From: Bacillota bacterium
GTDB lineage: Bacteria; Bacillota; Limnochordia; Darwinibacteriales; DTU012
Assembly: GCA_012798795.1 (NCBI GenBank)
Contig: JAAZMN010000075.1
Location: 1-33,884 of the forward strand
Reading direction: 5' to 3'
Length of the DNA: 33,884 nucleotides
This document shows, piece by piece, positions 892 through 3,919 of the stretch (position 1 is its first letter; every line of letters starts with the position of its first letter). The notes beneath the pieces are model-generated. The model was not told the DNA's origin, did no database searches, and worked only from the letters and a program-made list of their open reading frames with translations. The position numbers and the translations under genes are program-made.

Positions 892-1410
892 TCAATTTTC
901 CGCTGAGATAAGTTCATTCAGAGGAAGGCCTGCTTTAGCTAAACTTCCCTTTAATGCAAGGGCAATTACAGAGTCAACACTATGGTGTAAAATGGTTCCG
1001 ACTCCAACAACGATAAAAGCTTGATATAAATCAAAGCCAAGCGGTATTACCACCAATGCTTCGCCAAGAGCATGGGGAACAGCGGTTAATGCCAAAACAA
1101 CCCAAGACTTCTTACCATTTCTGAAAAGCTTAGCACCAATCACTCCAAAAATTATGTGAACAGCTGCACGTATAGCCACAACTGGCCCCAGAGTAACAAA
1201 AAAACCGAATGCTGAACCAATACCAACCAAAGTCGCTACCCAAGGGCTGATAAACATGGCCAACATAGTAGGAACATGGCTACCTAAAGTAGCTGAAAAC
1301 GGCGGAATATATACCTGCAGCCAACCTTTAAAAACTGTCGGTATGAGAATTGCCAGCGCTGCCAATAATGAACCGTAAACTAATTCTTGCACCTGTAATC
1401 GAGATTTCAT
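892..1410 (-). CDS. niaX: ECF transporter S component, probable niacin transporter NiaX
   Basis: 172-aa hydrophobic protein of ECF S-component type; divergent from a 3H-domain NiaR-like regulator with a shared inverted-repeat operator candidate. Confidence 0.75.
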   Translation of the reverse strand: MKSRLQVQELVYGSLLAALAILIPTVFKGWLQVYIPPFSATLGSHVPTMLAMFISPWVATLVGIGSAFGFFVTLGPVVAIRAAVHIIFGVIGAKLFRNGKKSWVVLALTAVPHALGEALVVIPLGFDLYQAFIVVGVGTILHHSVDSVIALALKGSLAKAGLPLNELISAEN

Positions 1411-1459
1411 CCCATTCGCCTCCGCATTTGAATCTATTGCTTAGCTGTTATTTTAACAG

Positions 1460-1495
1460 AAATATTGTCAGCTGTCTATACACCTGACAATATTT
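1460..1495. promoter_or_regulatory. Putative NiaR operator in the niaX/niaR divergent region
   Basis: Perfect 12-bp inverted repeat AAATATTGTCAG (1460-1471) / CTGACAATATTT (1484-1495) around ctgtctatacac. Confidence 0.65.
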
Positions 1496-1569
1496 ATTGT
1501 AAAATAAAGGGAAAAATATTCTTTAAGCGAATGAAATCTTAAGTACATTCACAAAGAAAGGTGATTTAT

Positions 1570-2091
1570 ATGAGCAGTATAAAAAGACGTCAAGCTATTC
1601 TCAACCACCTCAAACATGCCAAACAACCAATAACCGGCGGACAACTGAGTAAATTATTCAACGTATCCAGACAAATAATAGTTGCCGATATTGCCTTACT
1701 ACGGGCAAAGGGAGCAGATATTATCGGTACACCCCAAGGATACATATATAATATTACAAGCTCACCTAGCTTCCAACAAAAAATTGCAGCAATACACTCA
1801 AACAGCCATGAGCAAATCCGCGAGGAATTAACCATAATCGTAGATAATGGAGCATCAATCCAAGATGTAATTGTTGAGCATCCCTTGTATGGCGAGATTA
1901 CGGCCAGCCTTCACATTTATTCCAGACATGATGTAGACAGATTTATTGAAAAACTAGCTAAATCCAACGCCGAACCGTTACTGGTTCTTACAGACGGACT
2001 CCATTTACATACTATAACTGCAGAAAATTTAGAAACACTGACCACAGTTAAGCAGATTTTAGCTGAAAAAGGTTATTTGGCTTTAGACTAA
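1570..2091 (+). CDS. niaR: NiaR-type transcriptional repressor (HTH_11 + 3H domain)
   Basis: N-terminal winged HTH (RRQAILNHLKHAKQPITGGQLSKLFNVSRQIIVADIALLRAKG..I.GTPQGYI) followed by a 3H-like domain (VEHPLYGEITASLHI...LTDGLHLHTI). RBS AAAGGTGA favours ATG 1570 over the ORF-track start at 1561. Confidence 0.85.
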   Translation: MSSIKRRQAILNHLKHAKQPITGGQLSKLFNVSRQIIVADIALLRAKGADIIGTPQGYIYNITSSPSFQQKIAAIHSNSHEQIREELTIIVDNGASIQDVIVEHPLYGEITASLHIYSRHDVDRFIEKLAKSNAEPLLVLTDGLHLHTITAENLETLTTVKQILAEKGYLALD

Positions 2092-3423
2092 TCAAAGACC
2101 TAAATACCATGTGGCGATGGAAAAATAAATCAGTACACCGGCAATATCTGCAATTGATGTTACCAATGGCCCACTGGCGGCTGCCGGATCAATATTGATC
2201 CGGTCGAATATAAATGGAAGCAGCATACCAATTAAACTGCCGATTATAACAACAATAGCCATGGACAGCGAAACTATAATTGCAAGATCCATACCGCCTC
2301 TGTAAAAACCTAGCACTGATACAGCCAGTGCCATACATATACCAAGAGAAATAGAAACCATAACTTCCTTTTTTAAAAGGTCAAACCAATCTTCCGTATC
2401 TACATCGCCTAAAGCCAGTGCACGAATCATCAAAGCAGCTGATTGAGAACCGGCATTCCCAGCACTGTCAATAAGCAGCGGCAGGAAAAAAACTAAGGAA
2501 ATCACTGATTGAATTGTCTCTTCAAAACTGGCAATCCCTGCACCTGAAAATATATTTACAAATACCAATATAAGCAGCCAGGGAAGCCGCTTCTTTATCA
2601 ATAATGAAGGACTGGCATTAAGTATAGTAGTGTCAAGTTCACCTACTGTTGCCATTTTATGTAAATCCTCTGTATATTCCTCATCAACAACATCCATAAT
2701 ATCGTCAACGGTAATAATTCCTACTAAGCGATTTTCATGATCCGTTACCGGCATTGCCAAAAAGTTATATTTCTTAAACAGTTCAGCCGCTCTTTCTTGA
2801 TTATCCAATGTTGTTACTGAAATTACATCCCGATGCATAATATCTTCAATCTTCTCGGTTAACGAATGCAGCACCAAATCTTTAAGGGTAACGATTCCTT
2901 CCAAATGCCGCTCATGATCCATTACATAACAAGTATAAACAGTTTCTTTCTCTAAGGCAGTGGCTCTAATTTTGCTTAACGCCTCTTCAACCGTCATTTC
3001 CTTTCTCAAACTGACAAATTCAATAGTCATTACACTTCCGGCAGAATCGTCAGGATAATTGAGAAACTGATTAATTAATTTTCGTTTCGATTCCGGAGTG
3101 TTAATGAGAATTCTCTTAACAACATTAGCCGGCATTTCTTCAAGAAAGTCGATCATATCATCAAAAAACAATTCATTTACAATTTCTTGAAGTTCTTTTT
3201 CATGAACTAATCTTGAGATTGACCCCTTACTGTCAGAGCTTAAAAATGAAAACACATCAACTGCTAATTCCTTAGGCAATAACCTAAATACCAGCAGACC
3301 GCTCTTAGAATCTAATTCATCAATAATTTCAGCAATATCCGGTGCTTTTAGTTCAAGCAGTGCTTCTTTTAACAAAACATATTCCTTGTCGTCCAGCAGT
3401 GACATAATCTGATCAAATTTCAT
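2092..3423 (-). CDS. mgtE: Magnesium transporter MgtE (N domain, CBS pair, TM domain)
   Basis: 443 aa with MgtE N domain, CBS motifs and C-terminal TM region (SAGNAGSQSAALMIRALALG); preceded by an M-box riboswitch; SD AGGAGGA 7 nt before ATG. Confidence 0.95.
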   Translation of the reverse strand: MKFDQIMSLLDDKEYVLLKEALLELKAPDIAEIIDELDSKSGLLVFRLLPKELAVDVFSFLSSDSKGSISRLVHEKELQEIVNELFFDDMIDFLEEMPANVVKRILINTPESKRKLINQFLNYPDDSAGSVMTIEFVSLRKEMTVEEALSKIRATALEKETVYTCYVMDHERHLEGIVTLKDLVLHSLTEKIEDIMHRDVISVTTLDNQERAAELFKKYNFLAMPVTDHENRLVGIITVDDIMDVVDEEYTEDLHKMATVGELDTTILNASPSLLIKKRLPWLLILVFVNIFSGAGIASFEETIQSVISLVFFLPLLIDSAGNAGSQSAALMIRALALGDVDTEDWFDLLKKEVMVSISLGICMALAVSVLGFYRGGMDLAIIVSLSMAIVVIIGSLIGMLLPFIFDRINIDPAAASGPLVTSIADIAGVLIYFSIATWYLGL

Positions 3424-3446
3424 GATAAATTCCTCCTTCTCTTCTA

Positions 3447-3494
3447 TTTTAGGAGGAGCTGCCGTAGATGATTATACAGATAGTCCTCCTAAAA
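3447..3494 (-). promoter_or_regulatory. Long hairpin overlapping the leader ORF 3' end, with an alternative anti-SD pairing
   Basis: Minus strand TTTTAGGAGGA (3494-3484) pairs perfectly with TCCTCCTAAAA (3457-3447). TCCTCCT (3457-3451) can instead pair with AGGAGGA (3437-3431), the mgtE SD. Confidence 0.55.
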
Positions 3495-3534
3495 GTATTC
3501 TGATCATAAATTGTCGTTTAGGACCTGAATCCAT
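3472..3534 (-). CDS. Candidate 20-aa leader peptide MDSGPKRQFMIRILLGGLSV between the M-box terminator and mgtE
   Basis: ATG at 3534, TAA at 3474-3472, strong SD GGAGGTGG just upstream; below the ORF-track length cutoff; lies in the readthrough part of the mgtE leader. Confidence 0.5.
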   Translation of the reverse strand: MDSGPKRQFMIRILLGGLSV

Positions 3535-3558
3535 ATAACCACCTCCACAAAATAAAAA

Positions 3559-3584
3559 CCTTACTCATAAATTACGAGTAAAGG
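3559..3584 (-). terminator. Intrinsic terminator of the M-box expression platform
   Basis: Minus strand CCTTTACTCGTAATTTATGAGTAAGG followed by TTTTTATTTT. Confidence 0.8.
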
Positions 3585-3616
3585 TAATTATAATCAGCAA
3601 AAATATATCTGACATT

Positions 3617-3771
3617 CTCCCTACTCGTGACAGCTTTGACTCCATACAACGTAAGGGCTAACCCTAGCTACATTAAATAACACCTTAATCCGATGTTACC
3701 TGCTAACCCTTTAGCATCTCTCGATATTGCAGGGCAGTAGCATATTTTTGTATAGTAATCTCACCTAACTG
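3617..3771 (-). ncRNA. M-box (ykoK) Mg2+ riboswitch aptamer
   Basis: Minus strand GTTAGGTGAG...CTATACAAAAATATGCTACTGCCCTGCAATATCGAGAGATGCTAAAGGGTTAGCAGG...GGATTAAGGTGTTATTTAATGTAGCT matches the M-box core (UUAGGUGAG, GCU-CUGCCC, AUGUCGAGAG, GGGU-AACAGG); upstream of mgtE. Boundaries approximate. Confidence 0.88.
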
Positions 3772-3789
3772 GTTTTTGGTTCCTATTAC

Positions 3790-3817
3790 ATTATAATGCA
3801 ATTACAGCAATTTGCAA
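3790..3817 (-). promoter_or_regulatory. Sigma-A-like promoter for the M-box/mgtE transcript
   Basis: Minus strand TTGCAA (3817-3812), 16 bp, TATAAT (3795-3790), just upstream of the riboswitch. Confidence 0.65.
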
Positions 3818-3919
3818 ATCATTTTCCCAAAATACCGGAATTAAGCATCAATTATTTTTTTATAACACATACTAACATTAAATAATTAAGTACAAGATTA
3901 CAAAGAAAGGAATATTACA

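Follow-up and report, generated by a model that had tools for sequence, protein, structure and literature searches.

A predicted leader-peptide translational attenuator between an M-box riboswitch and mgtE, and a candidate family of related leaders in the Bacillota

In attenuators of the erm and cat type, the position of a ribosome on a leader ORF selects between helices that hide or free a Shine-Dalgarno sequence (SD), and the drug-induced stall takes place deep in the leader. Ribosome destabilization as a sensor of Mg2+ has been described for enterobacterial leaders, and under low Mg2+ the ribosomes translating MgtL dissociate at its EPDP motif (PMC8934632, PMC11282234). The mgtQ leader of Salmonella contains acidic codons and acts as a translational attenuator, in which helices 1:2 and 3:4 alternate with helix 2:3; removal of its start codon resulted in less MgtB (PMC8092293). 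A report of such leaders in the Bacillota was not found in the open-licence literature, though an unseen paper may exist, and the leader design presented here, found before mgtE in dozens of families, appears to be undescribed.

The DNA analysed (hereafter the window) is a stretch of 33,884 nucleotides from a Bacillota bacterium of the order Darwinibacteriales (contig JAAZMN010000075.1 of assembly GCA_012798795.1). We consider it likely, on the basis of modelling, that the minus-strand stretch 3548-3423, between an M-box and mgtE, is a leader-peptide translational attenuator of mgtE that would be on when ribosomes drop off the leader at low Mg2+ and off under full translation or no translation. 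The mgtE locus has the following features:

2092-3423, minus strand: mgtE magnesium transporter, 443 aa (TIGR00400, E 2e-135; PF01769, PF03448 and CBS domains)
3559-3583, minus strand: intrinsic terminator, the M-box expression platform, with an 11-pair stem followed by TTTTTATTTT
3613-3779, minus strand: M-box (ykoK) magnesium riboswitch aptamer (RF00380, 131.2 bits, E 1.7e-29)
3790-3818, minus strand: promoter-like site TTTGCA-17-TATAAT, from a consensus scan only (10/12 matches)

With 131 bits against a gathering score of 44 bits for the RF00380 covariance model, the 11-pair stem terminator as its expression platform and mgtE downstream, the M-box and terminator that the earlier note had placed upstream of mgtE were corroborated. 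Across the window and 46 other loci, the M-box was the sole Rfam match, and the leader itself matched no RNA family, which ruled out an Rfam riboswitch inside it; likewise, the leader peptide had no Pfam match, so a protein domain in the leader was rejected. In a genus of the window's own family (g5; L049, L052 and L057), M-box and leader are both missing before mgtE, and their joint absence implies that the whole control region is gained or lost as a unit. Elsewhere in the window, an HTH_11 and 3H-domain regulator, probably NiaR-like, neighbours a small membrane protein that has no Pfam match (1561-2091, plus strand, and 892-1410, minus strand); judged by eye, the latter may be a niacin transporter targeted by this regulator.

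The leader SD and ORF, as read from the sequence, and the RNA segments of the putative attenuator are:

3539-3546, minus strand: Shine-Dalgarno of the leader ORF, GGAGGTGG
3472-3534, minus strand: leader ORF MDSGPKRQFMIRILLGGLSV including the stop, 20 codons, ATG at 3534-3532 and TAA at 3474-3472
3528-3548, minus strand: segment 1 (A), leader ribosome-binding site (RBS) and start codon, partner of segment 2 (duplex -21.4 kcal/mol, P 0.009 against shuffles)
3484-3494, minus strand: 5' part of segment 2 (B'), TTTTAGGAGGA, partner of segment 3 in the ON helix (11 nt, perfect)
3460-3482, minus strand: 3' part of segment 2 (B), TATCTGTATAATCATCTACGGCA, partner of segment 1 (from folding)
3447-3457, minus strand: segment 3 (C), anti-SD TCCTCCTAAAA, partner of segment 2 or segment 4 (from sequence and duplex energy)
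3431-3437, minus strand: segment 4 (D), mgtE SD AGGAGGA, 7 nt 5' of the ATG at 3423 (C:D -12.5 kcal/mol)

The extended limits of the segments are 3548-3528 (1), 3495-3460 (2), 3462-3446 (3) and 3438-3430 (4). Codons 1-5 of the leader ORF read MDSGP, a conserved acidic/proline start. In the unconstrained RNAfold structure, which has no ribosome, 3482-3460 (the last part of the leader ORF and the bases just beyond it) is the partner of the leader RBS and its start codon (3548-3528); the anti-SD is taken up by the mgtE SD, and the B':C helix is not chosen. The extended B':C duplex, 3495-3475 with 3462-3446, has -18.2 kcal/mol (P 0.0023), and the CTGT of segment B is common to the A:B partner region and to this helix. 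Together, sequence and computation point to a predicted four-segment attenuator in which 1:2 and 3:4 would close the mgtE RBS and 2:3 would open it. The earlier note had drawn the leader SD, the 20-codon ORF, its 11-nt complement, the pairings of TCCTCCT and the mgtE SD, all of which we recovered at the same minus-strand coordinates, and it had proposed two mutually exclusive helices (its 1:2 is B':C, or 2:3 here; its 2:3 is C:SD, or 3:4 here) that we also found. Both of its helices recur in kind among the relatives, and B':C covaries in the best-aligned group (see below); the A:B helix turns the device into one of four segments.

Chance pairing was rejected by shuffle tests of the window helices, of the leader motif and of the helices across loci. 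An 11-nt perfect inverted repeat occurred within the stretch in 0.3% of dinucleotide shuffles; taken one by one, the helices reached their observed strength in 0.23% (B':C), 7.4% (C:SD) and 0.9% (A:B) of shuffles, and jointly in 0/3000.

Folding after masking a ribosome footprint (-15 to +16 relative to the P site) indicated which leader codons could act as a switch. With energies that take no account of tertiary structure, of Mg2+ or of co-transcriptional timing, the predicted probability that the mgtE SD is unpaired was 0.16 without a ribosome, 0.67-0.68 with a ribosome on codons 1-5 (MDSGP), 0.53 on codon 6, 0.18 at codon 7 and 0.16 from codon 8 onwards, with values of 0.16-0.32 towards the end. 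Thus exposure is predicted only with a ribosome on codons 1-6 (MDSGPK), and these switching codons coincide with the conserved peptide start; a gain as large as that of the window was seen in 0.25% of shuffles. In the nearest relative bearing the leader (L051 of genome G001), the predicted opening was absent (0.29 to 0.18).

According to our model, the M-box would first let transcription through, and the attenuator would then act on mgtE. Without a ribosome, 1:2 and 3:4 would form and mgtE would be off; once a ribosome occupied the first codons, 1:2 would melt, and 2:3 could then form and free the mgtE SD. By analogy with MgtL, the nascent M-D-S-G-P would destabilize the ribosome at low Mg2+, and ribosomes would load and drop off at codons 1-6, leading to translation of mgtE; at high Mg2+ they would reach the stop and disrupt segment 2, and 3:4 would close the mgtE RBS. 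Leader translation, ribosome drop-off and the Mg2+ trigger are the parts of this model that we infer. One point against it is that MDSGP contains one acidic residue versus two in MgtL. The logic of the earlier note, in which early abortion turns mgtE on and read-through turns it off, was supported, but the third helix, A:B, had been overlooked. As a consequence, that version implied that mgtE would be on without the leader start, whereas folding without a ribosome gives the OFF state (SD unpaired 0.16). Since the ON state needs a ribosome on codons 1-6, loss of the start codon should silence mgtE, as is reported of mgtQ.

Because only one informative relative came from a DNA search that used the leader as query, relatives were collected via mgtE, as regions upstream of this gene (TIGR00400) from the same order, class and phylum plus named genomes. 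The first distant homologues were ORFs starting MDSSP, MDSGP, MDSFP and MGPDP before mgtE, with or without an M-box. When the motif was scored blindly, as an SD-preceded ORF starting M[DE]x0-3P with dinucleotide shuffles as controls, 49 of 194 mgtE upstream regions carried such a leader ORF, compared with a shuffle mean of 1.15 (maximum 5), and a relaxed SD raised the count to 63 (3.35 in shuffles); the conserved ORF that the earlier note had asked of relatives does exist, while about 70% of mgtE loci lack such a leader by this motif. The family start is M-D-x-D/G-P; an M-box may or may not be present, and the loci span about 39 groups at family level. The leader ORFs, of 20-40 aa, are from Bacillota and one Fusobacteriaceae MAG; Fervidicella metallireducens and Thermotalea metallivorans are among the named carriers. 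Residue 2 is Asp in 43/49, residue 5 Pro in 38/49 and residue 4 Asp in 20/49. The Asp2 codons are GAT in 26 and GAC in 34, Pro5 uses all four CCN codons, and the ORFs start with GTG, ATG or TTG; this variety of synonymous and start codons implies selection on the peptide. Peptide conservation ends after about residue 8, and ORF length varies widely. In family f3, of the same order as the window, some leaders start MTG, MAS or MVP and not MDS, yet the RNA helices are kept; in the same family (L029-L050) the mgtE RBS and spacer, GGAGGATAAAAACATG, are near-invariant and match the anti-RBS GTTTTTATACTCC.

The element, which the earlier note had seen downstream of an M-box, does not depend on the presence of one. 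An M-box accompanied the leader in 10 of the 40 loci scanned (L006, L010, L011 and L012 likewise carry one), whereas 30/40 had none in the stretch available. A gene-blind scan of 399 genomes for AGGAGG plus MDxDP, which gave 18 hits, supported the link to magnesium. Among the short-ORF hits, five were before mgtE, and one that shares their MDGDPGS start was at the end of a contig. Two more, each downstream of an M-box, preceded a CorA gene (PF01544, E 8e-53) and a PRC-MgtE_N-CBS gene, respectively; the remaining short-ORF hits (L221, L229, L238) were inside or beside unrelated genes. In the CorA case (L237, about 1300-1520, minus strand), an MDGDP leader lies between the M-box and the CorA-family gene, and its RBS pairs with a downstream segment (-21.5 kcal/mol). 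In L228 (1454-1700, plus strand), the leader MDTDPDGRCLYLNMVMEGIKTLIY lies between the M-box and the PRC-MgtE_N-CBS gene, and the segment that can pair with the leader copy (-21.0) doubles as the 5' arm of a predicted intrinsic terminator (-19.0). From this competition, a transcriptional version of the device seems to exist.

The strong conservation of Pro5, comparable to that of Asp2 (38/49 versus 43/49), could be read as a response to another signal (proline supply, EF-P or ABC-F activity, or elongation speed), in which a stall on the early Pro codon would drive the same RNA switch; in Salmonella, both mgtP and mgtL are reported to be responsive to proline and EF-P (PMC6460261, PMC8092293). 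However, the acidic residue 2, and often residue 4, is conserved too, and the leaders stand before mgtE, CorA and MgtE_N genes, often after M-boxes, which favors Mg2+ as the signal. We therefore regard a different signal as unlikely, and favor Mg2+-dependent drop-off.

The RNA helices were also retained among relatives. As the sequences are too diverged for global alignment, each locus was compared with its own shuffles; for A:B this was the only route, because MAFFT cannot align segment 1:2 across families. In 70 loci, A:B (the partner of the leader RBS) had -23.5 versus -16.8 kcal/mol in shuffles (P 3e-12), C:D (the partner of the mgtE RBS) -14.8 versus -12.0 (P 1e-9), and B':C (the anti-SD with its upstream leader partner) -19.3 versus -13.7 (P 2e-9), by tests that preserve composition and not ancestry. 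In many loci (L100, L102, L169, L191, L200), segment 2 is common to segments 1 and 3. In the covariation alignment A2 (15 sequences from one alignable family of the same order), 7/16 pairs of B':C had changed on both sides in a compensatory manner, with a covariation score of 0.325 versus 0.216 +/- 0.015 that was exceeded by 0/500 shuffles; sliding the B':C partner by 1-3 columns lowered pairing from 91% to 39-54%. The C:D helix (3:4) was 96% paired and nearly invariant in A2, and was silent on covariation because its SD side does not vary; of the two stems for which the earlier note had suggested covariation as a check, B':C covaries but C:SD is uninformative. The leader-peptide translational attenuator first put forward there is thus backed, by sequence and computation, by a homologous architecture in about 70 loci.

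Predicted opening of the mgtE RBS extended beyond the window as well. The mean gain in unpaired SD over 38 family-level groups was +0.105 versus -0.012 in shuffles (P 4e-4), and over 39 such groups the RBS opening cost fell from 8.6 without a ribosome to 6.4 with one at the leader start, compared with 7.0 to 7.6 in shuffles (real versus shuffled, P 1.4e-5); collapsing loci to families reduces the shared ancestry behind these values and does not remove it. In family f3 (L039-L050), an early ribosome would already cover the start of segment 2, at codon 4-5, and the simple model holds for this family only once that ribosome has dropped off.

At many loci, no more than 30 nt separate the leader stop from mgtE; since a ribosome terminating at such a stop covers the SD or opens it, read-through there could amount to coupling and not repression. 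Under translational coupling, ribosomes that complete the leader would either unfold the anti-SD hairpin or reinitiate on mgtE, making full translation the ON state and early drop-off the OFF state. In support of this idea, the distance from leader stop to mgtE start is 5-30 nt in many loci, and with a ribosome placed on the stop the opening cost is low (L164 0.5, L013 0.4 and L010 2.0 kcal/mol). However, the window has its stop 48 nt upstream, and the SD stays paired with a ribosome at that position (0.17 unpaired); furthermore, coupling leaves the conserved B':C helix unexplained and has the wrong sign for a Mg2+ importer with an abort-prone leader. Taken as a general explanation, coupling seems rather improbable to us. 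Conservation of the N-terminal residues at the amino-acid level might also indicate a functional micropeptide, for instance a regulator of the MgtE protein, with the helices as by-products, but conservation ceases after about residue 8, length is variable and the helices persist with compensatory changes, which makes this very improbable. Finally, that the M-box and terminator are the entire control and the 114 nt an ordinary leader is scarcely credible: single-locus helices of this size do arise at 0.2-7% each and the g5 relatives lack both elements, but all the cross-family statistics oppose this already disfavoured reading.

With somewhat less assurance than for the window itself, we favor the view that these leaders form a large undescribed class in the Bacillota, with an M-D-x-D/G-P start, in which Mg2+-dependent ribosome drop-off would control mgtE, CorA and MgtE_N/Nramp-type genes, and that in the subset with an M-box two independent Mg2+ sensors, an aptamer and the ribosome, would act in series on one mRNA. 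If the class works as predicted, Mg2+ sensing by ribosome destabilization would extend across dozens of Bacillota families and stand beside the M-box in rank, the Bacillota leaders having evidently arisen separately from the enterobacterial ones. It would also raise the question of why an RNA sensor and a ribosome sensor are placed in series. The roughly 70 natural sequences are a ready set for testing which nascent chains destabilize Gram-positive ribosomes.

Among the known systems, the mgtE motif of the Breaker laboratory (SRC-65-1, PMC11109978) resembles the window in being a structured RNA that includes the mgtE SD, but it is a riboswitch candidate confined to Thioalkalivibrio with no described uORF; the different taxon and the lack of a uORF led us to reject identity with it. 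The M. tuberculosis pe20 M-box with uORF2/Rv1805A shares a conserved small ORF after an M-box, an early proline and an anti-SD/anti-anti-SD logic; there, however, it is the small ORF that the M-box regulates, and its peptide is limited to mycobacteria and has no assigned role (PMC12810186), whereas the window-type ORF would control a transporter RBS, often without an M-box. In mycobacterial uORF2 after M-boxes, a proline is conserved at position 7 (PMC12810186), and this ORF might be a further candidate for ribosome drop-off. With the erm/cat-type attenuators the window leader shares the logic of helix choice, but its switching codons are 1-6 and the proposed signal is Mg2+.

The resemblance is closest to the two enterobacterial leaders. 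Like mgtQ, which lies between mgtC and mgtB in Salmonella (PMC8092293), the window leader is a short ORF with early acidic codons and a strong SD, and would exert translational control through 1:2 and 3:4 versus 2:3, with 3:4 hiding the RBS of a Mg2+ transporter, which here rests on prediction and covariation. In contrast, mgtQ is an 8-aa ORF within an Enterobacteriaceae operon, before a P-type ATPase and without an M-box, in which Pro is not required, whereas the window-type leaders have 20-40 aa, precede mgtE and conserve Pro5. Given the different genes, phylum and ORF length, the likeness to mgtQ is presumed to be convergence. With MgtL, in the mgtA leader, the family shares a start of broadly the M-[D/E]-x-D-P type right after the initiator, a position before a Mg2+ importer and an early ribosome drop-off proposed to switch the transporter on. 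Against the E/D-P-D-P motif of MgtL, the window reads MDSGP and many relatives MDPDP, MDADP or MDGDP; beyond this kind of start there is no sequence homology. The ORFs are not homologous to mgtL, but the "unrelated in sequence" of the earlier note goes too far, given that the MDxDP/MDxGP start is of the same sort as the motif of MgtL. The output of MgtL is Rho-dependent transcription termination, while that of the leader family would be the mgtE SD (in L228, apparently an intrinsic terminator). By analogy, the window leader may be described as joining an MgtL-like start to an mgtQ-like RNA, ahead of another transporter and in another phylum.
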